From Sipunculus nudus (Eukaryota > Annelida > Sipuncula > Golfingiida > Sipunculidae), in the NCBI GenBank assembly GCA_026874595.1, contig CM049316.1, positions 59,529,676 through 59,593,675 of the forward strand: 64,000 nt of DNA. The letters run 5' to 3'. Shown here piece by piece: positions 10,601 to 64,000 of the stretch (its first letter is position 1; each line of letters begins with the position of its first letter). The position numbers were made by a program, and so were the translations under genes. The notes beneath the pieces were generated by a model. It saw nothing but the letters and a program-made list of their open reading frames with translations. It was not told the DNA's origin and ran no database searches.

Positions 10601-10775
10601 GTGCATAACATGTATAATAAAGAAATTAAACAGTAGAGATACAGAACGTATCGTGCAGAATATGTATATTAATGAAAAGACAATAGTAGAGATACGCACC
10701 GCGTATATATCGTCCATAACATGTATAATAAAGAAAGGTTTGTAAAGATTCATACCGCGTAAAGCATGTATAATA
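7690..10775. repeat. 52-bp satellite array, about 58 units
   Basis: The unit begins AGAGATACACACCGCCTACC and continues through GTGCATAACATGTATAATAA to AGAACAGACAAT, 52 bases in all. Units alternate between a CGCCTACCG and a CGCGTATCG type, giving a 104-bp dimer. A longer period of 630 bp is visible: blocks around 9280-9600 recur around 9910-10230 with the same private variants, such as CAGCGTATCGTCC. The left end (7690-8550) is more diverged than the centre. Overlapping minus-strand frames of about 100 codons run through the array because it lacks stops in some frames; they are not genes. It lies in the intron of the unit 1 LRR gene. Confidence 0.95.
7983..8060. other. Non-satellite insertion with hairpin inside the array
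   Basis: The satellite rhythm is broken by about 75 bases that include the perfect hairpin AGAACCCTTTTGGGTTCT (8023-8040), followed by ACCTGGAACCC. Such GGGTTCT/AGAACCC hairpins occur in short hAT-type elements of animals. That link is inference. Confidence 0.4.
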
Positions 10776-13718: not shown

Positions 13719-16700
13719 AAATATAATTCTTCTATAGGACCCACTCACTTATACATTAGATAATTGGGTTGTCAGTGGATATAAACATATGATAAAATAA
13801 TGCCGGGTTCTTTACTTTTTTTCACAAGAAAAAAAGGTACGTTCATCAGGATGCATTTGGCAATATGGGCTACATTATCTTACAATTATACAATAATACA
13901 ATTAACCCAGACTTAGATCCAAATAGGAAACAAATTAATATACCAGGAGGTTTATGTGCATGTTGACATCACTTTATGATATCAGTTGATTAGGTGATAT
14001 ATCGGTGCATATTATTTACTCGATCTCAGTAACTATTCTTGCTACATGAATTTACTTTAATATGCAGTACTGAGGGACATGCTTATTATCATGTGTAGAG
14101 ACGTTACATTTTAATCTTTAAATACATGAAACATATGTTGCCAAGTGGATATTTGTTTCAATATTTGACTTTTAGCCAGCGATCATATAGGCTAGTTTAT
14201 AAAACAATGAATTTTAGCCGAGTGACCTTAACAGAGAGGCCCACATGTTTATTCACTTGTCCCTGTAACTTTTATCAATTTATCAGGACAGATTTCGACA
14301 CCTTCTTTTCATTTTTACCAATTTTATTTAATATTTCTTGAGATTCCCTAATTAGAGTGCCGGTATATTATGAGAGAATTAATAATAGTCCTGAAATTTT
14401 GCACGTATTTTTATCAAGGACAGTTTCATCAGTTAAACTTGGCTGTCGATGTCACCTACACATCCCTCTTACTTATATCTTTGAAATTGCTAGATAACAG
14501 CAAATGTACCAGTTTGTCAGCAACTTAGTGGATTACCCTGAGAGATATACTTTCCCCTTTGAAGCGGCATCGCCAGGTCCCGGCAGTGACGGTCGTTGTA
14601 CTTTGAGCAAAACTTGAGCATCAATTTGTACTCATTCCGAGTAAAAATACCCTCAGCATAGGGAGCTTGTTTAAACAAGACGGGGCCAGTTTTCCTGTGA
14701 TGACTAACATGGTTTCTTGACCAAAGCATTAGTACTTATCACACCTGCACTGACAGATGAACTGTGGGGAGGGCCTTCTGGTAATTATTTTGACCCGAGC
14801 CGGGAAAACCCCGTTAATTAGCTTACCAAAAACAGTCATGGGCCGTGAGCGTGGATAATGAGGCGATAAGCAGATACTAATAACTTTGTGTAATAGAGAA
14901 TTGATAATTATTTTGTCGTTTATATCAAATTATTACTATATGCCCCATCGCGAAAATTAAACCCCGTGATATCATGAAAAAATGCCTGAGCGCGAAAACT
15001 TAGCCCCGTAAATTCAAAGCCAACCGCTGTATATTTAATGAACATGTTAAGTTTCGTTTGATCCACTGAGTTAAATCATCCAAGATAAATATGTACTCCT
15101 TTGCCCATCGTCCTCAAAGTTTGTAGTCAGGCTTTATCTTGTGTGTCTGCATGAATACTGGCAGAATGCTTTACTACGAAAACATTCTCGCTTCATCGTC
15201 AAACCATTACTATTGTCATGATGTTCCGTTTAACCCCTACAATAATGCGTTTATTTACCCCTTCTCTCATGTGAGTAAGCATCCATTTGTTTCTATGAGT
15301 AAAGCAGCCTCGTGGATGATGTCCCACTTTTTGTAAGCCATATGGTTTGATGAAAATCAGGCTTGTTAAGTTATACTTTGTTCTCTGTTCATGGTTCTAT
15401 TCTCAATATAATTACTCCGTCAGACAAGTTTCCATATGTCAGCCTGCATAATATTAGTAATACCACAAAGAAAATATAATTCTTTACCTTTATATATTTT
15501 ATACCTATTTATTAATGATGGAGCTGGCAACCAGAGCTTTACGAATAAACTATGAAACTTCAGTGTATCGCAGGGCATAATTCTTTGTGTAATTGAAACA
15601 GTTCCCAAATCATAAAAGGACCTTAATGATCAAGGTAGGAATCCAAAGATGAAACATACAGAACATATAGGATTTCTGATCGGTAAAATATATATAGATA
15701 AAGATTAGATTTATTAACAGGAGATATCTGAATGCAATACTTTTTCTTTTAATAATAGAATACTAAGGAATTCGGATTAAGAAAGGAGACACCAAATATT
15801 ATATAGTTGCCTTTCCCTTAATGCCTAATTGACCACCTGACTGTTTGTACTGTGAGGAATATTCATGCAGCTTTCATTCGTAGTTTGTTTTATATAACCC
15901 GATTATTTTATGATTATACTTACGAGGTTTAATGGTTCCATTTGAACTAAAAGCGAGACAATCAGAACCGTCGTAAACGGTAGTTTTCCTGCATTTAAGT
16001 TCAAAGAGCTTTGAATCATTAGCAACTTCCACAATAATTTGTTGGCGCAGGTTCCCTAAGAACCGAGCTTTCATCGAAGAAGTGTCGTTAGGACAAGAAG
16101 TATAATATGGTTTGTTTTGGTAATTGGTCTTAATGTCAGTGTGTTCGATTGTAGAATTGATGCAGTTTCGCGAAAACATCATATGTGTGTCTTCTTGTGT
16201 TAGCACGTGAGAAGGAGCACTGACCTTTTTCCCCCAAAGCCAGAATCCAACGGAGATGTTTAAACCATTTCCGCAAACACAATATATATTTTCTAATAAC
16301 CCGGCTTCTTCAACAATACACGACACCTCGCCAAAGCCCCTTTCACGTAAATCTATGGATAGAGCTTGAATGGTTTCAGGCAGTAAAAGATCATAGGTTA
16401 TACAGTATAGGCTGTTTCAAGAGATGTTGAAAACTTTTCAATGTTTCAAATGAACAAATAAACTGCTTGTCATGTGGTTTATCATATTTCTTGAGACGTC
16501 CAACATGATAAGATTGCCCAATCCAGTGAAGTACTCTGGTTTTAGTTCTGTTATAGACTTATTTCTCAGTGTTAGAAATTTAAGGCTTGGTATTCCTGCG
16601 AAGGAACCATTCATGAGGACAGAAATATTGTTGTTAGAAATGTTCAGAAGTTCAATCACTAAAGATCCTCTGAATTGTTGAACATTTATGGATGAAAGGT

Positions 16701-16849
16701 AGTTGAAGGATAGGTCAATGGCACGCATATATTGTAGATCCGCGAACGGGGAAAGTCCCATGCTTCTTATTGAACAGTTGGTCAGTGTGAGGGATGTTAG
16801 TCCTTGAGCAAGTTCAAAAATTGAAGTGTTAAGATGAATGAATGAGATC
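13719..16849. repeat. 3,131-bp tandem duplication, left copy
   Basis: Nearly every base matches 16850-19980, with scattered substitutions and one- or two-base indels. The junction at 16849/16850 reads AATGAGATCA directly followed by AATATAATTCTTC. It fuses the middle of the LRR exon to the sequence that begins at 13719. Unit 2 carries this region once. Confidence 0.95.
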
Positions 16850-16850
16850 A
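15924..16850 (-). pseudogene. LRR receptor first exon, copy A (5'-truncated)
   Basis: Same sequence as copy B from residue 34 on, so it lacks the start codon and signal peptide, which were cut off at the duplication junction. Two in-frame stops occur: TGA at 16438-16440 (Leu->stop, private to this copy) and TGA at 16417-16419 (Trp178->stop, shared with copy B). Downstream the frame stays open to the donor CTC|GTAAGTATAA at 15924. The remaining part shows five LRRs and the Cys-rich segment ending in a YDGSDCLAFSS motif. It is certainly non-functional as a receptor. Confidence 0.9.
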
Positions 16851-19800
16851 AATATAATTCTTCTATAGGACCAACTCACTTATACATTAGATAATTGGGT
16901 TGTCAGTGGATATAAACATATGATAAAATAATGCCGGGTTCTTTACTTTTTTTCACAAGAAAAAAGGTACGTTCATCAGGATGCATTTGGCAATATGGGC
17001 TACATTATCTTACAATTATACAATTATACAATTAACCCAGACTTAGATCCAAATAGGAAACAAATTAATATACCAGGAGGTTTATGTGCATGTTGACATC
17101 ACTTTATGATATCAGTTGATTAGGTGATATATCGGTGCATATTATTTACTCGATCTCAGTAACTATTCTTGCTACATGAATTTACTTTAATATGCAGTAC
17201 TGAGGGACATGCTTATTATCATGTGTAGAGACGTTACATTTTAATCTTTAAATACATGAAACATATGTTGCCAAGTGGATATTTGTTTCAATATTTGACT
17301 TTTAGCCAGCGATCATATAGGCTAGTTTATAAAACAATGAATTTTAGCCGAGTGACCTTAACAGAGAGGCCCACATGTTTATTCACTTGTCCCTGTAACT
17401 TTTATCAATTTATCAGGACAGGTTTCGACACCTTCTTTTCATTTTTACCAATTTTATTTAATATTTCTTGAGATTCCCTAATTAGAGTGCCGGTATATTA
17501 TGAGAGAATTAATAGATAGTCCTGAAATTTTGCACGTATTTTTATCAAGGACAGTTTCATCAGTTAAACTTGGCTGTCGATGTCACCTACACATTCCTCT
17601 TACTTATATCTTTGAAATTGCTAGATAACAGCAGATGTACCAGTTTTTCAGCAACTTAGTGGATTACCCTGAGAGATATACTTTCCCCTTTGAAGCGGCA
17701 TCGCCAGGTCCCGGCAGTGACGGTCGTTGTACTTTGAGCAAAACTTGAGCATCAATTTGTACTCATTCCAAGTAAAAATACCCTCAGCATAGGGAGCTTG
17801 TTTAAACAAGACGGGGCCAGTTTTCCTGTGATGACTAACATGGTTTCTTGACCAAAGCATTAGTACTTATCACACCTGCACTGACAGATGAACTGTGGGG
17901 AGGGCCTTCTGGTAATTATTTTGACCCGAGCCGGGAAAACCCCGTTAATTAGCTTACCAAAAACAGTCATGGGCCGTGAGCGTGGATAATGAGGCGATAA
18001 GCAGATACTAATAACTTTGTGTAATAGAGAATTGATAATTATTTTGTCGTTTATATCAAATTATTACTATATGCCCCATCGCGAAAATTAAACCCCGTGA
18101 TATCATGAAAAAATGCCTGAGCGCGAAAACTTAGCCCCGTAAATTCAAAGCCAACCGCTGTATATTTAATGAACATGTTAAGTTTTGTTTGATCCACTGA
18201 GTTAAATCATCCAAGATAAATATGTAGTCCTTTGCCCATCGTCCTCAAAGTTTGTAGTCAGGCTTTATCTTGTGTGTCTGCATGAATACTGGCAGAATGC
18301 TTTACTACGAAAACATTCTCGCTTCATCATCAAACCATTACTATTGTCATGATGTTCCATTTACCCCCTACAATAATGCGTTTATTTACCCCTTCTCTCA
18401 TGTGAGTAAGCATCCATTTGTTTCTATGAGTAAAGCAGCCTCGTGGATGATGTCCCACTTTTTGTAAGCCATATGGTTTGATGAAAATCAGGCTTGTTAA
18501 GTTATACTTTGTTCTCTGTTCATGGTTCTATTCTCAATATAATTACTCCGTCAGACAAGTTTCCATATGTCAGCCTGCATAATATTAGTAATACCACAAA
18601 GCAAATATAATTCTTTACCTTTATATATTTTATACCTATTTATTAATGATGGAGCTGGCAACCAGAGCTTTACGAATAAACTATGAAACTTCAGTGTATC
18701 GCAGGGCATAATTCTTTGTGTAATTGAAACAATTCCCAAATCATAAAAGGACCTTAATGATCAAGGCAGGAATCCAAAGATGAAACATACAGAACATATA
18801 GGATTTCTGATCGGTAAAATATATATAGATAAAGATTAGATTTATTAACAGGAGATATCTGAATGCAATACTTTTTCTTTTAATAATAGAATACTAAGGA
18901 ATTCGGATTAAGAAAGGAGACACCAAATATTATATAGTTGCCTTTCCCTTAATGCCTAATTGACCACCTGACTGTTTGTACTGTGAGGAATATTCATGCA
19001 GCTTTCATTCGTAGTTTGTTTTATATAACCCGATTATTTTATGATTATACTTACGAGGTTTAATGGTTCCATTTGAACTAAAAGCGAGACAATCAGAACC
19101 GTCGTAAACGGTAGTTTTCCTGCATTTAAGTTCAAAGAGCTTTGAATCATTAGCAACTTCCACAATAATTTGTTGGCGCAGGTTCCCTAAGAACCGAGCT
19201 TTCATCGAAGAAGTGTCGTTAGGACAAGAAGTATAATATGGTTTGTTTTGGTAATTGGTCTTAATGTCAGTGTGTTCGATTGTAGAATTGATGCAGTTTC
19301 GCGAAAACATCATATGTGTGTCTTCTTGTGTTAGCACGTGAGAAGGAGCACCGACCTTTTTCCCCCAAAGCCAGAATCCAACGGAGATGTTTAAACCATT
19401 TCCGCAAACACAATATATATTTTCTAATAACCCGGCTTCTTCAACAATACACGACACCTCGCCAAAGCCCCTTTCACGTAAATCTATGGATAGAGCTTGA
19501 ATGGTTTCAGGCAGTAAAAGATCATAGGTTATACAGTATAGGCTGTTTCAAGAGATGTTGAAAACTTTTAAATGTTTCAAATGAACAAATAAACTGCTTG
19601 TCATGTGGTTTATCATATTTCTTGAGACGTCCAACATGATAAGATTGCCCAATCCAGTGAAGTACTCTGGTTTTAGTTCTGTTATAGACTTATTTCTCAG
19701 TGTCAGAAATTTAAGGCTTGGTATTCCTGCGAAGGAACCATTCATGAGGACAGAAATATTGTTGTTAGAAATGTTCAGAAGTTCAATCACTAAAGATCCT

Positions 19801-19980
19801 CTGAATTGTTGAACATTTATGGATGAAAGGTAGTTGAAGGATAAGTCAATGGCACGCATATATTGTAGATCCGCGAACGGGGAAAGTCCCATGCTTCTTA
19901 TTGAACAGTTGGTCAGTGTGAGGGATGTTAGTCCTTGAGCAAGTTCAAAAATTGAAGTGTTAAGATGAATGAATGAGATC
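16850..19980. repeat. 3,131-bp tandem duplication, right copy
   Basis: Second copy of the block described at 13719-16849. Its right edge continues without a break into the 5' end of LRR exon copy B, so this is the ancestral position and the left block is the added copy. Confidence 0.95.
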
Positions 19981-20081
19981 ACCCTATCCGTGTCCCTTGG
20001 ATATCCATTTGGACACGAACAGTTTATGAGACCCGTCACCACTGCAATGACACAGAGGACCATTTCAGATCTTGTAGCCAT
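19055..20081 (-). pseudogene. LRR receptor first exon, copy B, nonsense at codon 178
   Basis: The exon begins with ATG at 20081, encoding a hydrophobic signal peptide (MATRSEMVLCVIAVV..) and ending at a canonical donor CTC|GTAAGTATAA. It is exactly as long as the intact copy C (1,027 bases). A single TGA (19548-19550) replaces the TGG of Trp178 at the end of the LRR block; apart from it the frame is open. The truncated product would be a secreted 177-residue LRR fragment. The only last exon downstream is at 7184-7575, leaving an intron of about 11.5 kb that contains copy A. Classed as a pseudogene because of the stop, but a soluble product or readthrough cannot be excluded from sequence. Confidence 0.85.
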
Positions 20082-20371
20082 GGCTAACCAAATGTTAAAA
20101 AATAGGTTTCAGTGAGACTGGATTTAGAGTTCCCTGGGTGGCTGAATATAGGGCTATAACAAGGAAGAGTCATAAGCTTAAATAAATACGCAAAACATCC
20201 TGAAACACAATTTACTGATTAACTATTGGTATGCCGTTTTACAGACGTGTTACATTATATATTATATTTATATACGTTACTGTGTAATTATATCTCGGTT
20301 CTTCAGTTAATTATCTTATCACTATTGTAGTGTTAACTTGTCATGCTGTAGGAATGTTTGCCTATGTCATG
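20082..20371. other. 5' flank of LRR copy B
   Basis: Homologous to the 5' flank of copy C (29345-29700). The TATATATTTA word upstream of copy C is changed to TATATTCA here. No gene. Confidence 0.45.
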
Positions 20372-23489: not shown

Positions 23490-24085
23490 AGTCGTACAAA
23501 ACATGTATAATAAAAAAATACAATAATAGAGATACAGCGTTTCATGCATAAAAAGTATAATAAAGAAAAAAAATAGAAGAGATACACATCGCGTATCGTG
23601 CATAACGTATAATAAAGAACAGACAATAATAGAGATACACACTGCCTACCGTGCATAACATGTATTATAAAAATAATAGTAAATATACACAACGCGAATC
23701 GTGCATAACATGTATAATAAAAAAAAATAAACATACACACCGCGATTCGTGAATAACACGTATAATAAATAAAATACAATAATAGAGATACACACCGCGT
23801 ATCGTGCATAATATGTATAATAAAGAACAGACAATAGTAGAGATACACACCGCCTACCATGCATCACATGTTAAATAAAGAAAAGACAATAGTAGAGATA
23901 CACAACGCCTATCGTGCATAACATGTATAATAAAAAAAGAAGTAAACATACACACCGCGAATCGTGCATAACATGTATAATAAAGAAAATATAATAGTAG
24001 AGATACACACCGCAAATCGTGCATAACATGTATAATAAAGAAATTAAACAGTAGAGATACACCACGTATCGTGCAAAAAAAAATA
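23490..24085. repeat. 52-bp satellite array, unit 2 (about 11 units)
   Basis: Same unit as 7690-10775 (AGAGATACACACCGC, CGTGCATAACATGTATAAT), but only about 600 bases long and more diverged. It sits at the same intron position, so the fivefold length difference arose after the LRR units duplicated. Confidence 0.9.
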
Positions 24086-27455: not shown

Positions 27456-28317
27456 CATGTTAAGTTTCGTTTGCTCCACTGAGTTCGATCATCCAAGATA
27501 AATATGTAGTCCTTTGCCCATCGTCCTCAAAGTTTGTAGTCAGGCTTTATCTTGTGTGTCTGAATGAATACTGACAGAATGCTTTCCTACGAAAACATTC
27601 TCGCATCGTCGTCAAACTATAACTATCGTCATAATGACCCATTTATCCCCTACAATTATGCGTTTATTTCCTCCTACTCTCAGCTTGGTACGCATTCATT
27701 TGTTTTTACGTGCAAAGCGGCCTATAGTGGCTGATGTCCCACTTGTTGTAAGCCATATGGGTTGATGAAAATCAGGCTTAATAAGTTTAACTTTGTTCTT
27801 TGTTCATTGTTCTATTCTCAACACAATTACTCCGTCCGACTAGTTTCCATATGTCAACCTACATAATATTAGAAATGGCACAAAGCAAATATAATACTTT
27901 ACCTTTATATTCTTTATACATACTTATTAATGAGGCAGCTGGCAACCAGAGCGAATAAACTAAGAACTTCTAGTGATCGCAGGGCACAATTCTTGGTGTA
28001 ATTGAAACAATTCCCAAATTATAAAAGGACCTTAATGTTCAAGGTAGGAATCGAAAGATGAAACATACAGAACATATAGGATTTCTGTTCGCTAAAATGT
28101 ATATTGATAAAGAATAAACTAATTTCCAGGAGAAATCTGAATGTAATACTTTATCTTTAAATAACAGAATACTAAGGAATTCTGATTACGAATGGAGACA
28201 CCAAATAATATATAATTGCCTTTCTGTAAATGCGTAATTGACAATATGAGGAATATTCATGCAGCCTTCATTCGTACTGTTTTTTATATAAAGCGATTAA
28301 TTTATGGTTATACTTAC
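26295..28317. other. Intron of LRR gene C with (TA)n
   Basis: Aligns with 13500-15920. A TA microsatellite (27404-27451) sits exactly where unit 1 has about 500 bases (14530-15045) that are missing here. No gene. Confidence 0.5.
27404..27451. repeat. (TA)n microsatellite at a deletion point
   Basis: About 48 bases of TA. The flanks match 14528 and 15043 of unit 1. Confidence 0.95.
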
Positions 28318-29344
28318 GATTTTCAAACGTTCCACTTGAGCTAAAAGCGAGACAATCAGAACCGTCGTAAACGGCAGTTTTCCTGCATTTAAGTTCGAAG
28401 AGCTTTGAACCATTAGCAATTTCCACCATTATATGTTGGCGAAGGTTCCCTAAGAACCGAGCTCGCATCGAAGAAATGTCGTTAGGGCAAGAAGTATAAT
28501 ATGATTCGTTTTGGTCGTTCGTCTGAATGTGAGCGTGTTCGATTATAGAATTGGAGCAGTTTGACGAAAACATCTTATGTGTGCCTTCTTGTGTTAGCAC
28601 GTGAGAAGAAGTACTAACATTGTTTCTCCAAAGCCAGAATCCAACGGAGATGTTTAAACCATTTCCACAAACACAATATATATTTTCAAATACCCCGGCT
28701 TCTTCAACAATACACGACACCGCGCCAAAGCCCGTTTGACGTAAATCTATGGATAGAGCTTGAATGGTTTCAGGCAATAAAACATCATAGGTTATGCAGT
28801 ATAGGCTGTTCCAAGATATGTTTAAAACTTTTAAATGTTTCAAATGAACAAATAAACTGCTTGTCATGTGGTTTATCATATTTCTTGAGACGTCCAACAT
28901 GATAAGATTGCCCAATCCAGTGAAGAACTCTGTTTTTAGTGCTGTTATAGAATTATTTCTCAGTGTCAGAAATTTAAGGCTTGGTATTCCTGCAAAGGAA
29001 CCATTCATGAGGATAGAAATCTTGTTGTTAGAAATGTTGAGTTGTTCAATCACCAAAGATCCTCTGAATTGTTGAACATTTATGGCTGAAAGATAGTTGG
29101 AGGATAGGTCAATAGCACGCATATGTTGTAGGTCCGCAAACGGGGAAGGTCCCATGCTTCTTATTGAACAGTTGGTCAGTGTGATGGATGTGAGTCCGTA
29201 AGCATGTTCAAAAAATGAACTGTTTAGATGAATGAATGACTTCACCTTATCCGTGTCCCTTTGTAATCCCTTTGGACACAAACAGTTTGTAACCCCCATC
29301 ATCACTGCAATGACAGAGAGGACCATTTCAGATCTTGTAGCCAT
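28318..29344 (-). CDS. LRR receptor gene C, first coding exon (signal peptide, LRRs, ectodomain)
   Basis: ATG at 29344 is chosen because a hydrophobic signal peptide follows immediately (MVLSVIAVMMGVTNCLC). The in-frame extension upstream is not hydrophobic and is not needed. Five 24-residue LRRs run from about residue 51 to 170 (e.g. LKFLTLRNNSITAL, LIMLDVSRNMI), capped by LKVLNISWNSLYC. A Cys-containing ectodomain follows (CVCGNG, NCSNS, SCPND, ELKCRK, SDCLAF) with several N-glycosylation sequons. The exon ends at donor ATC|GTAAGTATAA with one leftover base that matches the phase of 22775. The spliced product is 475 aa, a type I single-pass membrane protein probably exposed at the cell surface. 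A role in recognition or adhesion is inference from the LRR architecture; the family was not identified further. Confidence 0.85.
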
Positions 29345-29404
29345 GTCTAAACAAATGTAAAAAATAGGCTTCAGTGAGACTGGGTTTAGAGTTCCCTGGG
29401 TGGC

Positions 29405-29414
29405 TAAATATATA
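29405..29414 (-). promoter_or_regulatory. Possible TATA box of LRR gene C
   Basis: TATATATTTA on the minus strand about 60-70 bases upstream of the ATG. Copy B has a disrupted version. A pyrimidine-rich TTTACATTTGTTTAG just before the ATG could alternatively be a 3' splice site for an upstream non-coding exon. Confidence 0.3.
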
Positions 29415-29847
29415 GGGCTATAACAAGGAAGAGTCATAAGCTTACACAAACACGCAAAACATCCTGAAACACAATTAACTGATTAACTATTGGTATACCG
29501 ATTTACAGACGCGTTATCTGATATATAATATTTATATACAGAATTAAACCGTAGTCATATGCAGTACAGTGTAATTATACCGCGGTTCTCCAGTTAATTA
29601 TCTTGTCACTATTGTAGTTTTTCCTTGTCATGGATGTATATCAATACATGGCTGTAGGGAAGTTTGCCTACGTCATGATAATGTTTTTATTAGTGGCTAT
29701 TATAAAACGAGACAACGCAATTATCTAGGAAATTAACTGAGGTAACATTGAGCATTATTTAGTTCAGAGAACGTTGACAGCTCTCTTACGTTCAGTGTCT
29801 GCCTTAGCTCAATTTCAAGACAGGTAGTGAAACTAAAGTTTTATTTA
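29415..29847. other. 5' flank of LRR gene C
   Basis: Non-coding, matching the flank of copy B (20140-20735) without the 202-bp MITE. Confidence 0.45.
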
Positions 29848-31257
29848 TTATGTATATGTCACAGGACAAACTCCAATCCAGTAGAATCGTCGATCTTACT
29901 AGGACAAAGTCCGATCAGACTTTCTACTTGAAGAAACTCCGATCGGACTTTCTACTGGTAGGATCAGCGATTCTAATAGGACAAACTCTCATCATTGCCT
30001 TTACTGAGACAAACTCCGATAGACCAGAGACCATAACATAATAAGACTTTCTACTAGTAGAATCGGCGATTCTACTAGGACAAACTCCGATCGTTGTCTC
30101 TACTAGGACAAACTCCAATCATATATACATGTAATAGTTGGATCAGAGCTTCTGCTAGGACAAACCCCGATTGTGGTCTCTACTAGGACAAACTTACCAT
30201 AATGGTCTAATTTCTGAAACCTGAGATTATGAATAAATTAAACACAGTAATATGGTAACCAAAAGTTTTATTTATGATTATACATAATATGACTTTATTT
30301 ACTGTTGGATGTATATATTGCAATTTTTCTCTGTGATTTTAGAACAGGATGTGAATGAGATACTTTAGATCTATCCTTAAATTAAGGAATTTTACAATTA
30401 TACAAGTAGATAAACAGTTTGTGCTTATATGTGCTTTTATTTGAATTTTTTAGAAAATGAACTTTTATAAATTGTACTTAACCAAGGGATGTGTATTTCT
30501 GAGAATCAAAGTTCTATTTGAAAATACCTACATTTTGTATCAGTGGTTTAATTGATAAACGTAAGTACAGGTGGATGTATATATTGCATTTTTTTGCTGT
30601 GAATTTAAGACAGGATGTGAACGAAATATTTTATATCAATATTAAGGACTTTTACATATATACAAGTAGATAAACAGTTTGTGCTTACATGTGCTGGTGC
30701 TTGTATTTGTAATTTTTTTTATCAAATAAAATTGTATGAATATGTTTGAATGAAACATTTAGATGTATATCTGTGACTTGTATATGTAATCGTAGGATAT
30801 TGTGTTTTATCATATGTGCTTGTATTTATTTTTCTTTATTTTTTCAAACACATAAATAAAACATTTGGTTAAAATATTACTATTTTTTATTTAGTTTTAA
30901 TCTTAGGTTTCAGAAATTAGGTAAATTATGTTAAGTATCTCCTTGTAGAGACTACAATCGGAGTTTGTCCTGGTAGAGACTACTATCAGAGTTTGTCCCA
31001 GTAGAGGCCACGATCGGAGTTTGTCCTAGCAGAATCGCCGATTCCACCAGTAGAAAGTCTAATTATGTTGGGGTCTCTGGTTGATCGGAGTTTGTCCTAG
31101 TAGAGGCTATGATCGGAGTTTGTACTTGTAGAATCGCCGATCCTACTAGTAGAAAGTCTGATCGGAGTTTCTCCTAGAAGAAAGTCCGATCGGACTTTGT
31201 CCTAGTAAGATCGATGATTCTACTGGATCGGAGTTTGTCCTGTGACACATTTATGTA
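29848..31257. mobile_element. Foldback element with ~350-bp sub-repeated inverted termini and 7-bp target duplication
   Basis: Flanked by TTATGTA at 29848-29854 and 31251-31257. The left terminus (29855 to about 30215) and the right terminus (about 30930-31250) are reverse complements over some 320-360 bases, starting TATGTCACAGGACAAACTCC and ending GAGTTTGTCCTGTGACACAT. Each terminus is built from repeated words such as ACTAGGACAAACTCCGATCG, GACTTTCTACTAGTAG and GAATCGGCGATTCTAC. The interior (30215-30930) is AT-rich with a ~267-bp direct duplication (about 30304 and 30571, both containing AAGTAGATAAACAGTTTGTG). No transposase frame: a non-autonomous foldback transposon. Confidence 0.9.
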
Positions 31258-36749: not shown

Positions 36750-37545
36750 AACGTATGCTGCACACTCGGATTAAACGCACTTATTTTCAGACACTCCTAA
36801 ATGCAACGATGAATATTCATAACGAAATCAAACTCCACTCCTATTTTTAGTGTAACCTTACATCACACTTTCGCATTACATTCCCAAATTTTTTTTCAAT
36901 GGAAATCCTTCACAAGAAAAATACTGATCACGCCACATTGCCAACAACAGCTAAATAGTATTACGTTTTATAGATATATAACAATATGTAGAATAAAATG
37001 TTGAATGCGTTAATCTTATGCAAGAGCATGTACATGTACACTCTGCCGATCTTTATAACAGTCTTGTTATAACATAGGTTTACTGTATCTTATTATCCTC
37101 CGCCTGGTGGGTATGCGATAATTCCCGTTCGTGAGTTTGTCTGTTTTGTGTGAATGTGTTTGTTCACATTATAACTCATAACCTGTAATCATGAACAGAA
37201 TCTCATGAAATTTTCAGGGCGCTTCGGGAAAGCGTTCTGGAAGAATCGATCAGATAATGGTGTTGATCCAGCATCTGAGACGGATTCTGGAGCGTAATCA
37301 AGGAATACACACTAATATATGGTCATTTATGGCACGTATGGACCTAGGAATATGGGCAAAATAATAAGTGAATGGACAGAAGCTCTAGCCTCATGGGCTG
37401 CGCATTGCGGCTCGGCCACCTGTTCTGGTTACGGTCGAGCGTCCAGCATATCGTAGTGACGGTGTCCAGTGTTTTTGCAGAGCGTTTTTTAAACTTGTGC
37501 TCCCATGGCGGAGGCAAATATCCATTGGGATGTAGATTTCTAGTG
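35050..37545. other. Duplicated non-coding block 3' of isomerase E1
   Basis: Matches 51250-53170, and part of it matches 58272-58835. Contains (TA)n at 36701-36747 and a dispersed-repeat phrase at 37090-37290 (TTCACATTATAACTCATAAC to GATCCAGCATCTGAGACG) that recurs at 52930-53120. Short frames have no recognisable product. Confidence 0.5.
36701..36747. repeat. (TA)n microsatellite
   Basis: About 47 bases of AT. The paralog at 52550-52590 has only short broken AT runs. Confidence 0.95.
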
Positions 37546-37834
37546 TTATAATCTGGATTTGTCTTCCAGATCTTTCATTTTTTCTTGTACAGAAATCATA
37601 TCCTGCTGATAAGCTCGGACAACGCTGTCATAAAAGCCCAGCTTTATGTTTCTCAGGCTGTCTCGCTTTATCCCTGAGCTGGGCTGGCAGCCTTTAGCAA
37701 GGTTTACTGCCGCCGACAGCAGCGCCTCCTGGCTGTAGACAGCTTTGATTATTCCAGCGTTCTTTGCCTCTTGTCCGGTAAAGCGAGAGCCGAGAACAAC
37801 CATATCAGTCAGGGTCGACTTCGGTACTTTACAT
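37546..37834 (-). CDS. E1 exon 4 (C-terminal helix region, PTS1)
   Basis: Acceptor TATTTTCAG, then the phase-completing A. The exon reads CKVPKSTLTDMVVLGSRFTG through AGIIKAVYS to KSRL and stop. SRL fits the peroxisomal consensus [SAC][KRH][LM]. The coiled C-terminal helix (YQQDMISVQEKMKDLEDK) fits the crotonase trimerisation end. Confidence 0.75.
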
Positions 37835-38919
37835 CTGAAAATATTTCAAATTAAAATTCCTGTTTGAAAACATAACTAAGACGAATAACTAAGACGAAAC
37901 AAAGAACATGCAGGATGAATGTACACAGATACATTCATCGTGGCCCATCACCAGGGGAGCGTGTATTATTGCGCAGTGTCAAGCGTTCAAACATGGCTCA
38001 CACTGCGCAGAATCGCACTTCTAGGAGTAAGCTGAATGCACAGGGGCTTCTATAAACACCAGCTATGTAGGTATAAATGTAGTGAAAAGTGTTATGTTAT
38101 CTGTTCAGATATGTTGGATAAGAATTGTTGCAAGGCAAATTACATGAACATGGACGTTTTTGTGGTAAGAACTTGGAGTGAGTAGGCTACGGAGCCCGGG
38201 AGACGACATGGTGAAAAATATTTATTAATTCGTGCGCACGAATTACTAATCCGTGCGCACGAAATACTAGGTGTGAAAAATATATTTCCAAGGTGGGAAA
38301 AATATTTATTAATTCATGCGCACGAATTATTAATCCGTGCGCACGAATTACTAATCCGTGCGCACGAATTAGTGACCAATGAGAACAGCTCTCTTATGTT
38401 GCTGGCTCAATGCTCATTGGCTACTAATTCGTGCGCACGAGTTATTAATTTCGTGCGCACGAATTACTAGCCAATGAGAAGCAAGCACACATCGACTCTG
38501 TCTAGGCAGAGGTTGGCAGTTTCAACGGGCACACACGGTTGTCAAAATGGAGCCCAGCCTCTTCCGACAATTTCATGACTTCCTACCTTGGAAGTTGCCG
38601 TGCATGGTGGAAAATTTCTAAGGCTTTCTCTTGTAAAACCAAACAACAACGAACCTTATAATCGTTGGGCATAATGGGCACATTATTATAGATAAAGCCG
38701 GCTGAAATTTTTAACAGTTATTTTGCTTCACAAAGTAACTACAGTTACAGTTCTCAACCGCCATTGACGATGATGCTAAATTGCAAATAACGAATAAACT
38801 AGGTGAAATGAACTTCACAGAACTTCTCATGTCATATTTGGAATTCGCTTTCCTGACAGGAACACATAAACATGATATGTTTGAAAGCAAATAAGCTTTT
38901 GGAAATTTTGAAAAAAATT

Positions 38920-39600
38920 ATAAATTCCATTTCTCTATGAAAGTTTTAGATCGTATGTACGAATCATTAATACGTTTAGTACTGGAGTGTGGTGCTTTAA
39001 TATTTAACAATTGTGCTGTCAGACAGTCATACCAGCTGGAGAGTATACAACGGAAAGCATGTTTAACATGTACTGGAGCGCTCTCGACTTCCAGCACTGG
39101 AGCTATGGTAAACGAGCTATAAGGGTCAAGTATAAAAATAAGAAGAGAGCTGGCTATACAATCCACATTTTATTAAATGATTAACGGACTAGCTCCAGAT
39201 TATCTGCTAATATATTAACTCAAGCTCTGTCTCATGCTCAGCCCTATACAGTCCGCGCAAATCGCATTTGCTTAAGATGCCGAGGTTCACACGGAAAGAC
39301 TGTCGCTTTTCTTTCCTTACAATTTTCTTTTCTTTCCTTTAAATAGCCTGCAAACTTTTGAACAGTTTCCTATAATTCAGTCTATTTCAATCGATTCCTT
39401 TAAGGAAAATGTTCGTGACTATTTAAACCCTGCCTCTCCAGAAATATGCAGTTATTATTGCGACAAACATCGTCAACATGAAATTAACCATACTCGGTTA
39501 CGACTAGGTGCCAGTTACTTAAATCAATACCTATTTTCAATTGGAAGGACTGATGGTTATAATCTAATCGATATGCTCGATATGGACTGAGACGTTTATT
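38920..39600 (+). mobile_element. Decayed LINE reverse-transcriptase C-terminus inside the foldback
   Basis: Plus-strand reading in shifting frames gives MKVLDRMYESLIRLVLECGA, NNCAVRQSYQLESIQRKACL, then ALSTSSTGA, later MINGLAPDYL, then NHTRLRLGASYLNQYLFSIG. This is the ordered C-terminal pattern of invertebrate non-LTR ORF2 proteins (IRp.LEya..vw..c, L..iQ..A, INGLAPdYL, TRLRLG.S.LN). Stops and frameshifts abound. It belongs to a different subfamily from the 21.2-kb fragment. Confidence 0.75.
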
Positions 39601-39688
39601 TTTATTGTATTACGCCTAACAGTAATAATATATGTATAAATATCAGTGTATGTGGAATGTCAATCTGTATTAACGTATTTTATGTATC

Positions 39689-39711
39689 TATATATATATA
39701 TATATATATAT
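39689..39711. repeat. Short (TA)n
   Basis: About 23 bases of TA just 3' of the LINE remnant. Confidence 0.85.
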
Positions 39712-40477
39712 CTTATCGTGTGTGAATATATGTGATCTTTTCTAATCTGATCATTTATATATACATTATATATATGTTAATTTTTCACTTTCTTTTAATT
39801 CATATGCAGGAGAGCAGTTGCATTAGCCTTATCGGCTACTTTGTTATCCTATTGAAATAAATATTTTTCCCTTTGGAAATATATTTTTCACACCTAGTAA
39901 TTCGTGCCCACGGATTAGTAATTCGTACGCACGGATTAGTAATACGTGCGCACGAATTAATAAATATTTTTTCCACCTTGGAAATTTATTTTTTCACACC
40001 GAGTAATTCGTGCGCACGAATTAGTAATTCTTGCGCACGAATTAGTAATTCGTGGCCACGAATTAGTAATTCGTGCTCACTTATTAGTAATTCGTGCGCA
40101 CGAATTAATAAATATTGTTTCCACCTTGGAAATTTATTTTTTCACACCGAGTAATTCGTGCGCACGAATTAGTAATTCGTGCGCACGGATTAGTAATTCG
40201 TGCGCACGAATTAATAAAAATTTTTCACGATGTCGTCTCCCGGGCTCCGTAGTAGGCCTACATGGAATTAGTAATATTTTTTGATGAGGTGAGGAAGTAC
40301 CGGAAGTAACGTCATAAGATACGTGAAATCTGAACACATGGTTTGACAGCTGTCTGTTAATTAAAATAAAATTCATGTTATAACTGTGCTAGTCACAAAT
40401 GCAATAACTATACACTTACTCGAAACATATTAAATTTTAGCTCTTGATAAAACATTTCAATTATTCGAGACTTATAC

Positions 40478-40613
40478 CTCATTATTTCAGCAGCCATTCC
40501 CGTAATAGTCATATCAAGGTGAACCTCGTTAAGGGAGAGCCATCCCCGGTCCTGTGTCATCAGCCGATGGTCATGTTACATTACGAGTATTACACCACCC
40601 CCATACACGTGAC
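40478..40613 (-). pseudogene. E1 exon 3 with in-frame TAA
   Basis: Acceptor CTTGCAG and donor ATGAG|GTATAAG are canonical and the length (136) equals E2 exon 3. It reads HVYGGGVILVM, then a stop, then HDHRLMTQDRGW and NEVHLDMTITGMAAEIM. The catalytic Glu is kept. Confidence 0.8.
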
Positions 40614-41184
40614 CTGCAAGAAAAATATTTTACTGAATCAGCGTTAGCTACTTTATCATTCCCCACCTCTTCTGCTATTTAAGTATCGCACATTTATCCT
40701 TGGGTATGTCATGCATGCACTATAAGAATCTTTTTATTAATAGCGTAAGGCGATTTTTTTTTAATTTTCCGTATATCCTCTGATACCGCCGTACGGATTA
40801 TCGTGATTTTTGACATACATATGCTCAGTGTTTGTCCGAAGAGATTCCACCCACTTTTATTGGCAATATTTGTGTTTTACTTGCATAATAAATAGGTTTA
40901 ATATTTGTTCCCCCGAGGGCGCCCCTATTCATTGTGCGTTCGGGCCTGGTTACACAACGGCCATATATATAGTGTGTGATGCCGGGACAAAGCTCTCTCT
41001 GGGGGCTCTATGTGGGGTATTCATACATTTTGCGTTCGCTGGCCTGAAATTATCCGCATTGATAATCTCTTCTCAAAAGGAAACCTGCTTGGAGGTCTAA
41101 TGTGCCCAAGGAGATCTCGCGCGAGAAGAATGCTCAAAAGGGGGGACTTTAAAAAAATCAAAATTACCCGAACGGGAGCGAATG

Positions 41185-51350: not shown

Positions 51351-53170
51351 AAAATATATAAAACAACATGTCCACTTGCCTTCCGGCAAAACAAAACAAA
51401 TCTTTAGAGTTCGGGATAAGGGTTAGTTATTCCAGAGTGTACCTATATTGGAAAGAAAAACTTTCCCTTTGGCTTATATATGCATGTCTTTTGTGAAACC
51501 TGAAAGATGTTTAGGATAAGGGTATAGGGATTTCAGGCAGGTCACTAATATTGTATTTTTACCGAGCTTAAGATGTGACATATACATAAACAGAGAGACC
51601 ACAGACATGGTGTTATAGACAGGTACTTAACGAGTAAATCACGATGATATTTGACGTCGCCACTAAATTCTTGTGACACAACTCCTTTGATCAGAAATGC
51701 TTGTTGTTTTGTCTTTAAGTTTTGAAAAAAGATGCCTGAGGACTTCTACAATATTTGGAAGTTTCTAGAACTGTATATTGCAGCGCAGCATATCAGAAAG
51801 TACGCCAGTGTATAGCCAGCCGGTGGACTCGTCCCTGTGGAAATCACTTAAGGGACGATCTTGGGCCAAGTCGCGTATGCCAGCCCCAATGTATAAAGGA
51901 CCAGTCAAAAATAAATATAATAAAGTTTAAAGAATAAATGATATATCCAAATCTGAACCATATATGATACACAGGGAACCAACAAATTTATTTTCACTGA
52001 AGTTGGGCCAACGATAAATTTAACAAAAATCTTTGGCATGTTCTGATTATTGTACACGGAGTAACAGCCAAATAAATCAACAAACTCATTGAATCAAAAA
52101 CTCCAAAACCCATAACTTAAATATGAAAAATTGATTGTCACATTTATTAAAATTCAATTTTCATAAAAATGGGAGGAATGAATAAAACACACATAAGAAA
52201 CACTCCGTCAGGTGTTAAGAACATATATCATACATCGGCTGCTTAGGTCAAACGGTCCCCTCTCCCCTTTGCCACTTCCCCTTTTATATACAACGTACAT
52301 TGTGATATTGTTTTATACGCAGCTGATACACTGATACATCCTTGCATGTAAAGTTTAAATTTTAATTATTGACTCGTTACGGCAGTACATGACTGAAAGG
52401 GACCAAAGGCAAATAAAATAACCTATTTAAACTTATCTGCCGTATTTACATTACCTAGTACTTGAATTTGAATTTGTATTTAATGACATATTATAGAGAT
52501 TAAGGGACATTTCCCATCATTCCATGGTGATTAATTAAATGTATGATAAATTAATATATATAAATGAATATATTGATATATATATAATGTATGCTGCACA
52601 CTCGGATTAAACGCACTTATTTTCAGACACTCCTTAATGCAACGATGAATATTTATTACGAAATCAAACTCCTCTCAGATATTAAGTGCAACCTTACACC
52701 GCACTTGCGCATTATATTTCCATAATTATTTCCAATGGAAATCCGACACAAGAAAATATACTGATCACGCCACATTGCCAACAACAGCTAAATAGTATTA
52801 TGTTAAGTAAGTAAATAACAATATGTAGAACAAAATGTTTAACGCGCCATTTTTATGCAAGAGCATGTACTTGTATATTCTGCCGATCTCCATAACAGTC
52901 GTGTTATAAAATAGGTATACTGTATCTTGTTCGCCTCCGCCTGGAGGGTATGCGATCATTCCAGTTCGTGAGTATGTGTGTTTTTGTGTGAATGTGTTTG
53001 TTCACAGCATAATTCATAACATGTAATCATGAACAGAATCTCATGAAATTATCAGGGCACTTCGGGAATGCGTTCTGGAAGAAAAAAATAGATTATGGTG
53101 TTGATCCAGCATCTTAGACGGATTCTGGAGCGTCAACAAGAAATATACAAAACTGTACGGTCATTTATGG
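50295..53170. other. Duplicated non-coding block
   Basis: 50.3-51.35 kb is part of the inverted duplication. 51.25-53.17 kb matches 35.2-37.34 kb. No gene beyond shadows. Confidence 0.5.
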
Positions 53171-53174
53171 CACG

Positions 53175-53400
53175 ATTGTATACGACCTCTGGCGGAAGGT
53201 TGGGCTTGCGTCCGGGAGTGCCTCATTGTTATTGGTCAAATCTAATGGTTTAAGAATCTTGGCCCAGATTGACAGAATGCCATATGGCGTGATACACGAC
53301 AAATGCTCCATGTGCAAACAGTAGATAAATGAAATGAATCAGAGAAAGGAATGCAATGAGGTCGCTGAGTGCAAGAGAATGCAGCCTACTGAGGAAAGAC
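53175..53400. other. Unit 2 replacement of isomerase exon 4
   Basis: Between the matches to 37340 and 40270 of unit 1, unit 2 has only about 220 unrelated bases. Exon 4 of E2 is therefore absent. Confidence 0.65.
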
Positions 53401-53596
53401 TATTTTCTTGACGCTGATGAGGAAATACCGAAAGTGACGTCATTAGATACGTGAAATCTGAACACAAGGTTGGATAGCCATCTGGTAAAAATTAATGTTA
53501 CAACTGTGCTAGTCACAAATGCAATGACTATGCGCTCACTCTAAATGTATAAAATTTTAGCTCTTGATAAAACATTTCAATTTTCGGGACTTGTAC

Positions 53597-56500
53597 CTCA
53601 TTATTTCAGCAATCATTCCCGAAATAGCCATATCAAGGTGAACCTGGTTAAGGGAGAACCATCCCCGGTCCTGTCTCATCAGCCGATGGTCATGTGACAT
53701 TGCAAGGATTACACCACCGCCAAACACGTGACCTGCAAGAAAAATATTATACTGTATCAACGAAAGCTACTTTATCAACCCCACCTCTCCTGCTATTTAA
53801 GTATCGCACATTTATCCTCGGGTATGTCATGCATGCACTATAAGAATTAACTATGTATTATCCTTTCTTGCGTATTTCATGTCGTTTCTGACTAATGTGG
53901 CATTTCTCGATTTATAGGCAATGTGAGAAAGACCTTTACTTAGGAAGTCCATAAACGGGCATGGCTCCGAGGCGTGGCTGCTGAGGAGTTACTCGATAAC
54001 GGTCGAGTGGCACCACCGTCAATAATAATAAAGATTTCCTGCTTGTAAGCAATCAGCATAGGTAAAGTTCCTTTTAAATTTAACGCTATTCCTTTACAAA
54101 AGTCATCAAAATTCGTTCATAACTTTTTGAATAATTTTGCCAACAAACGAACTAACCAACTACGACGAAAATATGAAGGAGTTATCATCAGCGACCCTAT
54201 TCGGCCATTCACATTTCAATTGGAATGGGCACGTCCGCTGAGCTGGGATAGCCTTCTCAAGCATGTTGACAAGTAGTAGGTTATACAGATGTGTCCGGAT
54301 AAAGTGCCGATAACTCCGATGTTACCTGATATTATCCCGATAGCATCCGGACACATCGGGACACATTGGTTATCGTTGTGACAATGCTACAGACCGCGGA
54401 CACCATTGGCCAGGAGTGAACCCTGTTTATAGGAGACCATATGTAACCCACAAACAGAAAAATTAAAAGAGGAAACACTTTACAAGCAAACTGACAACTC
54501 ACCATTAATAGCCGCAGTGGTGGGTACTGGGAAGGCCATCACCCTCATATAAAGATTTAAGTACAATTCGTTGTTTTTAAGTGCTGTCATGGAATCAGCA
54601 CATCCCCGCCATTTAACATACTATTGGAGTAAAACTTCCCAAGTCCTGTGGTCTCCAGAGCCTTCATGGAGGAGACTCTGAATGCACAAGATAACATACT
54701 GAATAAAATTCTTTTATAAGTTCAGCGCAACCTCTTCTAGGGACAATTCACGTTATTCTCCTCATTATTTTTGTTCTTTTCATAACCTCCACAGAGTAGT
54801 ATTCTCTATAAAGTGGGCACTTTTCCCCAGTCCCCCGGGTGTCCGTCCATATTATAAAGGGTTCACTGTAATTAAGAATATAGGAGTATTCATTATTTAC
54901 TACAACCACACAATCTTTCTCAGCGCCATGTATATTTTTATTTTTTTTTTTTCATGTGTATGGATTATGCTACCTTTGTTCCATTTCTCTGCGGGCTCAT
55001 CGCACATTTCCGGCGTTCAGAATAGTTCGTGAGAGAATGATTTCGTTGATTTTGTAACAGGCTAGTTCCATCATATTTAAAGCGGCCTAACCGCCTATAA
55101 AGCATGTTGAATTAACACGGAAAATAGCGTATTATCTTTGGAATAAATGTGTTACCTGCCGTAGGCTTACTTCTGTACACGAGTGTTAAAAACAGTTGAC
55201 CGGGCTCGATCCCAGGCTTTAATATAAGCACGGCGTGTGGGATTCCATGCATCGCCCGGCCACAATCAGGAGATGTCCTGACTGTCTTGTCCTTAAAAGT
55301 AATTCATGTTCCCGCTGGTGTTATCATCTAATGTTACGGTGATACACGGGCTTACACTGTGCTGCCCGTGCCATTTCAGCTAAGGCACCGTTAAAATCCG
55401 TTGCCACAGGTTCTTCAGTGAGTTTACATTCGGCCCATGGACCGTAATATCTATTAGCAGAGATGTATTAGGGGACATGAAGGTCCATGTATGCCTAGTG
55501 GTGGACTAGTTTGGACTTCTCTTTGTTTAGGGTCTATCGCGCATGCGCGAATTCAGAGCTCCGGTGAGGCGGCCTGGTTTTTTTTAAAGAAATTAGTATT
55601 AACTAAATGAATCCGAATTCAGTTGCATTACTTTCAAGATGGTTTATTCATGGCAAATTTTCATTTCACCCAACGCGTGTTTAGATAAACAAAGTGTAAT
55701 GTCTGGAGCCCCGCAGCTACAAACATAAATTTAAACAGGAATATTGATCACACGACTGGTATGTAATTTAAGCTAGTTTTTTATGCGACAAGAGAGTATT
55801 TCCATTTTTATGAGATTACATCATGATCAGAAAATCTTCACACATAAACATTTATGTAAATGTGTAATTATTTATACAAGTGACCCATGGACCATGACAA
55901 TTAGCTGACATTGACATACAGGTAATGCATGTATTAATTATTGTTGTTATGATCGGGTAAAAAGTAATTATATAGGAACCATGAACAATGGGAAGAATGA
56001 CTTTCATTGTTCTGACTTTCAAGGCGCTTAAATAATGTTTTTTTTTCCCGATAGCTCGCAGAATATAATACATGGTCACTTATTTCATGTTCCCAACGAC
56101 ATTTACCTCCTTGAATGTCACGTTTAAAGATTCTAGGCCCAACAGATACAATTTGTGTCCATCTGACCCTTGGTGTTCCAATTCATGTTTTCTGCCAGTG
56201 GCTCGCAGAATAAGGATCACCAAGACATAATTTCGGGCTTTCTGAGATGCTTGAAAATTTAAGAAAGTTAATTTATTGCAAAGGTATTGAAATAGTATAT
56301 TGCACAACTGATACCACGGATTTTCAATAATACATGCGTCGGAAGACTATACGAGTCCATTAATCATTATATATCATTTCCTTTGTATCCCATTTTTGCC
56401 TCTGACGCAACGTGACAATGAGAAAATTTAATTTATGGCTCATTTAACAGCCGGTTGGTTTTTATAATCATGCTTATCGCAGTGACGCAGCAAGAATTAC

Positions 56501-63441: not shown

Positions 63442-63733
63442 TCATAATCTTGCCGCCTTGCCCAGTCTGTTAACGGCCGTCTGCCTTGCCGTCCTGCCCA
63501 CTTCATTGTTGGCTTTTACGACATTCTCGTAGAAATTTTCCTTCATGCTTCTAAGACTGTCACGTGATATCCCTGTGCTGGGCTGACAGTCCTTGGTAAG
63601 TTTTATCGCTGCAGGAAGCAACTCGGCCTCGCTGTAGACGGCGTTGACTATTCCAGCCTTCACTGCTTCTGGTCCAGTGAAGCGTCGACCAAGGATTGCG
63701 ACATCACTCAACGATTCCCTGGGTGTTTTGGCT
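63442..63733 (-). CDS. Enoyl-CoA delta isomerase E6, last exon (gene continues past the right edge)
   Basis: Acceptor TTTCTGATAG followed by A and then AKTPRESLSDVAILGRRFTG, AGIVNAVYSEAELL, CQPSTGISRDSL, ending GKAARL and stop. ARL fits the peroxisomal PTS1 consensus. The phase (one base completing an Arg codon) is the same as in E1. Intact and open. Exons 1-3 would lie beyond 64000 on the minus strand. It is more diverged from E1-E4 than they are from one another, and closest to the decayed exon at 1531. Best candidate for a working isomerase gene touched by this window. Confidence 0.8.
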
Positions 63734-64000
63734 CTATCAGAAAAGATAACAGAACAGAATGCTTACAATAAAACACAATTCGTCTGTTACAAACGAATTT
63801 AATCATAAGTCTATCGTCAGTGTATGTACCTTCTTATCTGCAAATAAGTTTTTATTCTGATAAGGCTGATAAGTTATATATTTAGGTACACGTGCCCTGG
63901 CGTTTGATCGGCATCTACAAATACACCCTACGCTAGCACTGTATCTATCATATATACATATACCTGTATGTAAATTCAAATATATGGAGCTTACGAATAC
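63734..64000. other. Intron 3 of isomerase E6
   Basis: AT-rich intron sequence running off the window. No further exon seen. Confidence 0.5.

Follow-up and report, generated by a model that had tools for sequence, protein, structure and literature searches.

Two groups of DNA transposons come closest to the element described here, namely the IS3EU superfamily and the Foldback/Galileo-type elements; Galileo itself belongs to the P superfamily and makes target site duplications (TSDs) of 7 bp. IS3EU families have TA..TA ends and usually a 6-bp TSD, as described in the available part of PMC10045372. Fungal IS3EU elements with a TET/JBP gene have TAYGG..CCRTA ends and carry genes for a transposase and an alpha-kinase that point in opposite directions (PMC12730594, available part). 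For Galileo and Tetris of Drosophila, the accessible text of PMC4079207 describes inverted arms with tandem sub-repeats, which are proposed to multiply transposase sites; such extra sites within Galileo tandem repeats set a precedent for function, and the string “palindrom” is absent from the main text of that paper. Since two satellite DNAs are listed under IS3EU in the accessible part of the Pacific oyster satellitome (PMC8268682), tandem repeats linked to IS3EU are already known; the accessible part of a second oyster paper (PMC11136912) does not mention IS3EU.

Here, we analyze an element in a window of Sipunculus nudus DNA (the window being the whole stretch analyzed, 64,000 nucleotides). 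The element is very probably a non-autonomous DNA transposon of the IS3EU superfamily that would be moved in trans by large relatives (“partners”), with arms that would act as phased multimeric sites and exchange with each other. Its family shares with IS3EU/GingerRoot the TAYGG..CCRTA ends, the 6-bp TSD, inverted repeats of more than 30 bp, and an integrase-core transposase accompanied by an oppositely oriented second gene (PMC10045372 and PMC12730594, available parts). It differs in that a 20-bp near-palindrome, repeated in phase, makes up the arms, whereas no palindromic arrays are described for IS3EU/GingerRoot in the accessible parts of these two papers; in addition, partner copies reach 23–29 kb here, and the scanned part of the second gene has no Pfam match, in contrast to the alpha-kinase gene in the fungal elements as partially described. 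With Galileo and Tetris, it shares inverted arms built of tandem sub-repeats. However, the transposase is of the THAP type in Galileo and of the integrase-core type here, and Tetris has sub-repeats of ~220 bp and TSDs of 8–10 bp as opposed to 20-bp units and 6 bp (PMC4079207, accessible text).

Searches of the open-licence literature found no paper containing the unit string, and the matches listed for a 9-letter fragment of the terminus looked unrelated by title. Combining IS3EU with TSDs, palindromes, sub-terminal repeats, or foldback sub-repeats returned no such arrays among the matches listed. What we would call new is the design of near-palindromic phased arrays, together with its consequence for exchange between arms.

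Sequences analyzed

The host genome (G000) comprises 1,426,538,692 bp in 153 contigs, of which those named here are denoted C1, C2, and C3; sampled stretches are denoted by L. We took 16 sequences around unit sites (C1), 20 around termini (C1 and C2), and three short ones (C3), in each case the first places listed as opposed to a random sample. Unit statistics are based on 485 units from 36 sequences, and TSDs were counted in 37 sequences (the first 36 plus the window copy) for end pairs less than 5 kb apart. L001, a contig from a virus collection, and L002–L005, which lie inside L006, were left out of all counts.

Limits and architecture of the element

The element spans window positions 38188–40251 (2,064 bp) and has the termini TACGG..CCGTA. 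Its 20-bp inverted ends, TACGGAGCCCGGGAGACGAC, had been reported in an earlier note on this DNA and are indeed exact at both sides (38188–38207 and 40232–40251), with none expected from 100 shuffles. A scan for ends and repeats places the flanking direct repeat, GTAGGC, at 38182–38187 and 40252–40257. This repeat is 6 bp long as opposed to the 7 bp (AGTAGGC) given previously, because the seventh base belongs to the right inverted repeat, as its terminal A; in other copies with a perfect in-register repeat, the length is likewise 6 bp. Over 83 nt, the arms (38187–38269 and 40170–40252) are 96% complementary.

Both arms are built from a 20-bp unit. Within three mismatches of TAATTCGTGCGCACGAATTA, we found 18 units where none is expected; the left arm holds seven of them and the right arm 11. 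They follow each other with a 21-bp period in blocks of two to five, and the blocks are parted by ~43-bp spacers whose sequence, followed inwards, is much like CTAGGTGTGAAAAATATATTTCCAAGGTGG..ATTTAT. On the plus strand, the left end cap (TACGGAGCCCGGGAGACGACAT...ATTTAT, 38 bp, 38188–38225) is followed by a block of two units (38226–38266), a 43-bp spacer of the type just described (38267–38309), and a block of three units at 21 bp (38310–38371). A promoter-like module (38372–38549, plus strand) then contains a CCAAT box, an inverted CCAAT box, two units (38425–38466), a further CCAAT box, and an ATG at 38547–38549. On the minus strand, the right arm consists of an inner block of three units (39898–39959), a middle block of five (40004–40107), an outer block of three (40152–40213), and an end cap terminating in ...GTCGTCTCCCGGGCTCCGTA (40214–40251). 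The units were previously described as tandem perfect palindromes; the tandem arrangement at both termini stands, but only six of the 18 are perfect over 20 bp, and half of the 12 imperfect ones are altered on one side only, at position 5 or 16.

Between the arms lies a core (38550–39865, plus strand) that is common to most of the sampled 2-kb copies and lacks a long open frame. From a motif, we take it to resemble the 3′ part of a non-LTR retrotransposon; comparison of the core with Pfam and PDB gave no match supporting such an origin.

Copies across the host genome

The earlier note had proposed that many copies with shared ends, TSDs, and varying unit numbers would establish a family, and this is what the genome contains. 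Exact 18-bp unit cores occur 793 times and exact 20-bp termini 318 times (162 on one strand and 156 on the other), compared to none for the reversed pattern of either. Units are present in all 20 stretches picked by the terminus alone (L022–L041), with 3–28 in each. Searches of IMG/VR with the unit and the terminus gave no matches (once, one contig with a single 16-mer), and a search for the unit in genome_contigs gave none, as expected for an animal element.

Perfect 6-bp TSDs flank 20 of the 30 end pairs, corresponding to 19 insertions since L018 gives two pairs; their first base is G in 13 of the 20 cases, and 10 of the 37 sequences have no end pair. The 10 pairs without a perfect 6-bp TSD include two with five of six letters matching (L019 and L022), two with four (L008 and L012), and three with 0–2 in register (L021, L036, and L040). 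Two nested pairs in L035 are probably mis-pairings, and the copy at L010:2933–4991 instead has the 8-bp direct repeat CGTTACCA at its flanks. L018:2827–6826 has a single right end but two left ends in tandem, with CATTGGTA in front of each; the left part of a copy may have been duplicated locally.

Of the 16 sequences L006–L021, 13 match long parts of the window core; L009, L016, and L017 are the exceptions. In an alignment of 11 copies, picked because both ends were seen, the ten copies aligned with the window copy are 88–97% identical to the majority sequence. The longest open stretch in the cores of the aligned copies, in any frame, is 83–142 aa, which suggests that the family most likely spread with its core already defective.

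Large relatives carry an integrase-core transposase

Far-apart end pairs delimit three large partner copies: C2:43565693–43594973 (29.3 kb), C1:62736608–62759538 (22.9 kb), and C3:6708395–6731931 (23.5 kb). All three have unit arrays at both ends. A clean TSD is seen in one of the three only: AATTTA lies on both sides of the 29.3-kb copy, TAAAAC on both sides of the 22.9-kb copy with the left one offset by one base, and the 23.5-kb copy is located in an (AT)n run. Compared with the 22.9-kb copy, the 29.3-kb copy has an insertion of ~5.3 kb, within which a Gypsy element is nested, so that most of its extra length is explained. Where compared, L016 and L037 are 97–98% identical, as are L017 and L038.

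The search for a transposase between the same ends, also suggested by the earlier note, succeeded with these partners. A near-identical transposase exon lies just inside the left end in all three large copies, and transposase open reading frames (ORFs) adjoin the inner side of the left array in L016 and L037. In the 29.3-kb and 22.9-kb copies, the exon 1 ORF is 230–232 aa long and stops before a GTATTT donor. Its C-terminal part matches the Pfam integrase-core model rva_4 above cut-off (E = 2.6e-16 and 4.7e-16), and the next exon of the 29.3-kb copy matches the remainder of the domain just below cut-off (7e-5). The best NCBIfam models are IS481 (6e-5) and IS3 (0.0016) transposases, both far below cut-off; a comparison with PDB found no relative of the transposase.

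Searching the genome with exon 1, with 120 candidates scored, yielded 102 matches. Among them, nine genomic copies cover the whole query at 99–100% identity (one with an internal stop), four more matches are at 95–96%, and several other transposase lineages lie at 46–70%. Many partners also contain an inverted, degenerate copy of the exon ~10 kb further inside, at 85–90% and usually with two TAG codons; C2:43566371 and C2:43576347 are examples. Because the partner is present in highly similar copies with open transposase exons, the model presented below can be tested directly.

A second gene lies just inside the right array on the opposite strand. It starts with MEPNALRQLQFNDFLRERGLSEETISSIENEK and continues after a GTCAGT donor with IDPKVVIEMSEEDL..; in the parts scanned, no Pfam model is matched above cut-off. 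CCAAT-unit-CCAAT modules precede the start codons of both partner genes in the copy displayed (L016/L017). The left arm of the window element likewise has a CCAAT module followed by a start, ATGGAGCCCAGC, which together resemble the promoter and start of this second gene. This similarity suggests that the window element most likely derives from the second-gene side of a related partner.

Proposed exchange between arms and core-less copies

Three short copies, L009 (180 bp), L029 (224 bp), and L042 (138 bp), each have a perfect 6-bp TSD and consist of two end caps plus units, with one spacer in addition in L029; L042 keeps three units. Left arms consist mostly of L-type units with the separator c, and right arms of R-type units with the separator g. 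In L009, the type switches from L to R between the second and third units in exact 21-bp register, while in L029 and L042 the last unit joins the right cap directly. Single polarity switches also occur inside the arms of larger copies (e.g., L025, L031, L032, and L034), although some of these could be point mutations.

Inverted repeats do not normally recombine in a way that deletes the DNA between them; repeats of a palindrome can. Since the units are nearly their own reverse complement, the two arms, although inverted, double as direct repeats of each other, and we infer that the short core-less copies arise by exchange between the arms. This would resemble the formation of solo LTRs, in which recombination between terminal repeats removes the interior. 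In contrast to solo LTRs, however, the terminal repeats are inverted here and act as direct ones only because the unit is near-palindromic, and the product retains both transposon ends. Failure of gap repair after excision may be an alternative source of core-less copies. For the arm-exchange reading, the polarity marks (the outer-side T5C change described below and the separator C or G) allow exchange points to be mapped base by base. To our knowledge, how miniature inverted-repeat copies originate from large DNA transposons is an open question.

We also ran a short-copy pattern (~128–188 bp) over the genome; it requires exact ends, its inner TA anchor misses L042, and L009 is missed too. It gave one exact match, G000:C3:72977773–72977953 (181 bp), with both exact 13-bp ends. 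The displayed part of this copy shows one degenerate unit followed by other sequence, and no pure array.

Units are phased and only partly palindromic

Perfect 20-bp palindromes make up 137 of the 485 units (102 of the consensus, 32 with a GGCC centre, and three others). The commonest forms with a single change are TAATTCGTGCGCACGGATTA (58 units) and its mirror image TAATCCGTGCGCACGAATTA (49 units). At position 5/16, 213 units have a one-sided change and five a change on both sides, the expectation for the latter being 25; palindromy is thus not maintained at this position. Read from the tip inwards, with short copies read from both ends, the T5C kind of change is on the outer side in 199 units and on the inner side in 18. 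The central CG is altered on both sides in 73 units and the dyad is kept in 67 of them, but one centre form dominates, and this dyad-keeping change may therefore be a single old event. As a single-strand hairpin, the perfect unit folds at −5.0 kcal/mol and the T5C variant at −0.9 kcal/mol.

The spacing between units is 21 bp in 317 of 421 cases. Of 98 spacings longer than 30 bp, 61 fall at 61–66 bp, 27 at 71–73 bp, and 10 elsewhere. The three spacing classes (21, ~63, and 73 bp) are thus near two, six, and seven whole helical turns at 10.5 bp per turn. The 98 long spacings have a mean phase of 2.4 degrees with a resultant of 0.80, values that are non-independent because the long spacings stem from few ancestral spacers; as such, individual spacings count as cells and not as events, and the independent evidence consists of the three classes. 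Unit number per arm ranges from 2 to 17.

Candidate roles of the arrays

Our model predicts that the DDE transposase of the large relatives (~23–29 kb, with the same ends) would act in trans on the window element and insert it with 6-bp target duplications. Each unit array would be bound as a multimeric site by a dimeric protein; the transposase is the likeliest candidate, followed by the partner's second protein. These sites may serve both end recognition and control of the two partner promoters, the latter because the units there lie between CCAAT boxes. Exchange between arms would alter unit number and delete the interior, yielding core-less copies of 138–224 bp that have both ends. A more far-reaching version, which we put forward tentatively and would not yet favor over simpler ones, is that this is a new end design: phased near-palindrome arrays would be at once the multimeric end site of the transposase and the operator of both promoters (with copy-number feedback), and the arms, acting as direct repeats, could collapse in one step to mobile core-less miniatures. 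Because the larger relatives carry the transposase gene that probably moves the element, its palindromes lend themselves to study as control sites for jumping.

Among other explanations, the units might bind a host transcription factor, the arrays then being a captured promoter or enhancer and not transposase sites. The CCAAT boxes that flank units beside both start codons agree with this, yet units lie as close as 38 bp to the tips, and the 138-bp copy consists entirely of units and caps, which is more than a promoter needs; we regard this explanation as possible but doubtful. Somewhat less credible is neutral expansion, in which the arrays would have grown in the manner of a satellite and be carried along with the ends without having a function. 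The arm arrays of Tetris expand by unequal exchange (PMC4079207, accessible text), unit number varies as widely here as noted above, and a degenerate unit is the only one displayed for one of the two-ended copies. However, neutral expansion fits poorly with arrays at both ends of all three large partners and in every terminus-chosen stretch, with their regular phase, with the units inside both partner promoters, and with the three units kept in the 138-bp copy.

The palindromes could also act as structure, by cruciform or hairpin extrusion, in place of protein sites, and the earlier note had stressed that every unit can form a cruciform. The folding energy of the perfect unit and the frequent retention of the dyad when the central CG becomes GC are in line with such a role. 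This claim is nevertheless weakened by the commonest variant, the one-sided T5C change, which is frequent and polar and abolishes most of the hairpin energy, and phased spacing has no obvious role in extrusion; we therefore consider it improbable. Frequent, polar hairpin loss and helical phase instead argue that the units are likelier to act by protein binding, and the suggestion of a multimerised protein-binding site, made in the same note as a side remark, becomes the reading that we favor.

Classification

On the basis of its ends, its 6-bp TSD, and the IS3/IS481-like integrase-core transposase of its partners, we file the element as a non-autonomous IS3EU transposon. The termini TACGG..CCGTA conform to the TA..TA and TAYGG..CCRTA patterns, and a 6-bp TSD flanks L042 and the 29.3-kb copy in addition to the end pairs counted above. 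An IS3/IS481-related DDE transposase is indicated by rva_4 above cut-off, with the IS481 and IS3 models below it. The earlier assignment to Foldback/Galileo elements is thus replaced, although structurally the element does work like a foldback element.

That it is a classical Foldback/Galileo-type element of the P superfamily is highly improbable. In its favor, the long inverted arms consist of tandem sub-repeats whose number varies, no long open frame lies between them, and extra transposase sites are reported for Galileo tandem repeats (PMC4079207, accessible text). However, the TSD is 6 bp and neither 7 bp or longer nor the 8–10 bp of Tetris (same source), no THAP match was found among six ORFs scanned, and the integrase core of the partner transposase contradicts it. 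The assignment to IS3EU raises the possibility that IS3EU also gave rise to some of the foldback-like elements whose parentage is uncertain.

Insertion site and other features of the window

The insertion had been placed inside an isomerase intron, with an empty paralog giving a clean boundary. The intron is plausible, with an ECH_1 exon at 37546–37845 and an upstream exon at ~40.48–40.60 kb seen by eye only. The paralog does not supply the boundary: 53039–53847 aligns with 37201–37336 and 40275–40729, and not across the insertion point. Paralogous enoyl-CoA hydratase/isomerase exons lie on the minus strand at 37546–37845 and 63442–63762, the second just below the Pfam cut-off.

Scanning the whole window for additional TA..TA ends bordered by 6-bp repeats revealed no further convincing element; the remaining hits lie in a 52-bp tandem array, in simple TA repeats, or inside the element described here. 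A second foldback-like element at 29854–31250 has arms of 262 nt that are 89% complementary, and its 28-bp sub-repeats contain the perfect palindromes AAAGTCCGATCGGACTTT (31181–31198) and TTCTACTAGTAGAA (30049–30062); a search by eye found no target duplication around it. Related tandem repeat arrays of 52–55 bp occupy 7754–10736 (~50 copies) and 23492–24075. Finally, three similar LRR genes or gene parts at 15874–16875, 19005–20108, and 28268–29482, with LRR domains examined in the last, are probably recent duplicates.
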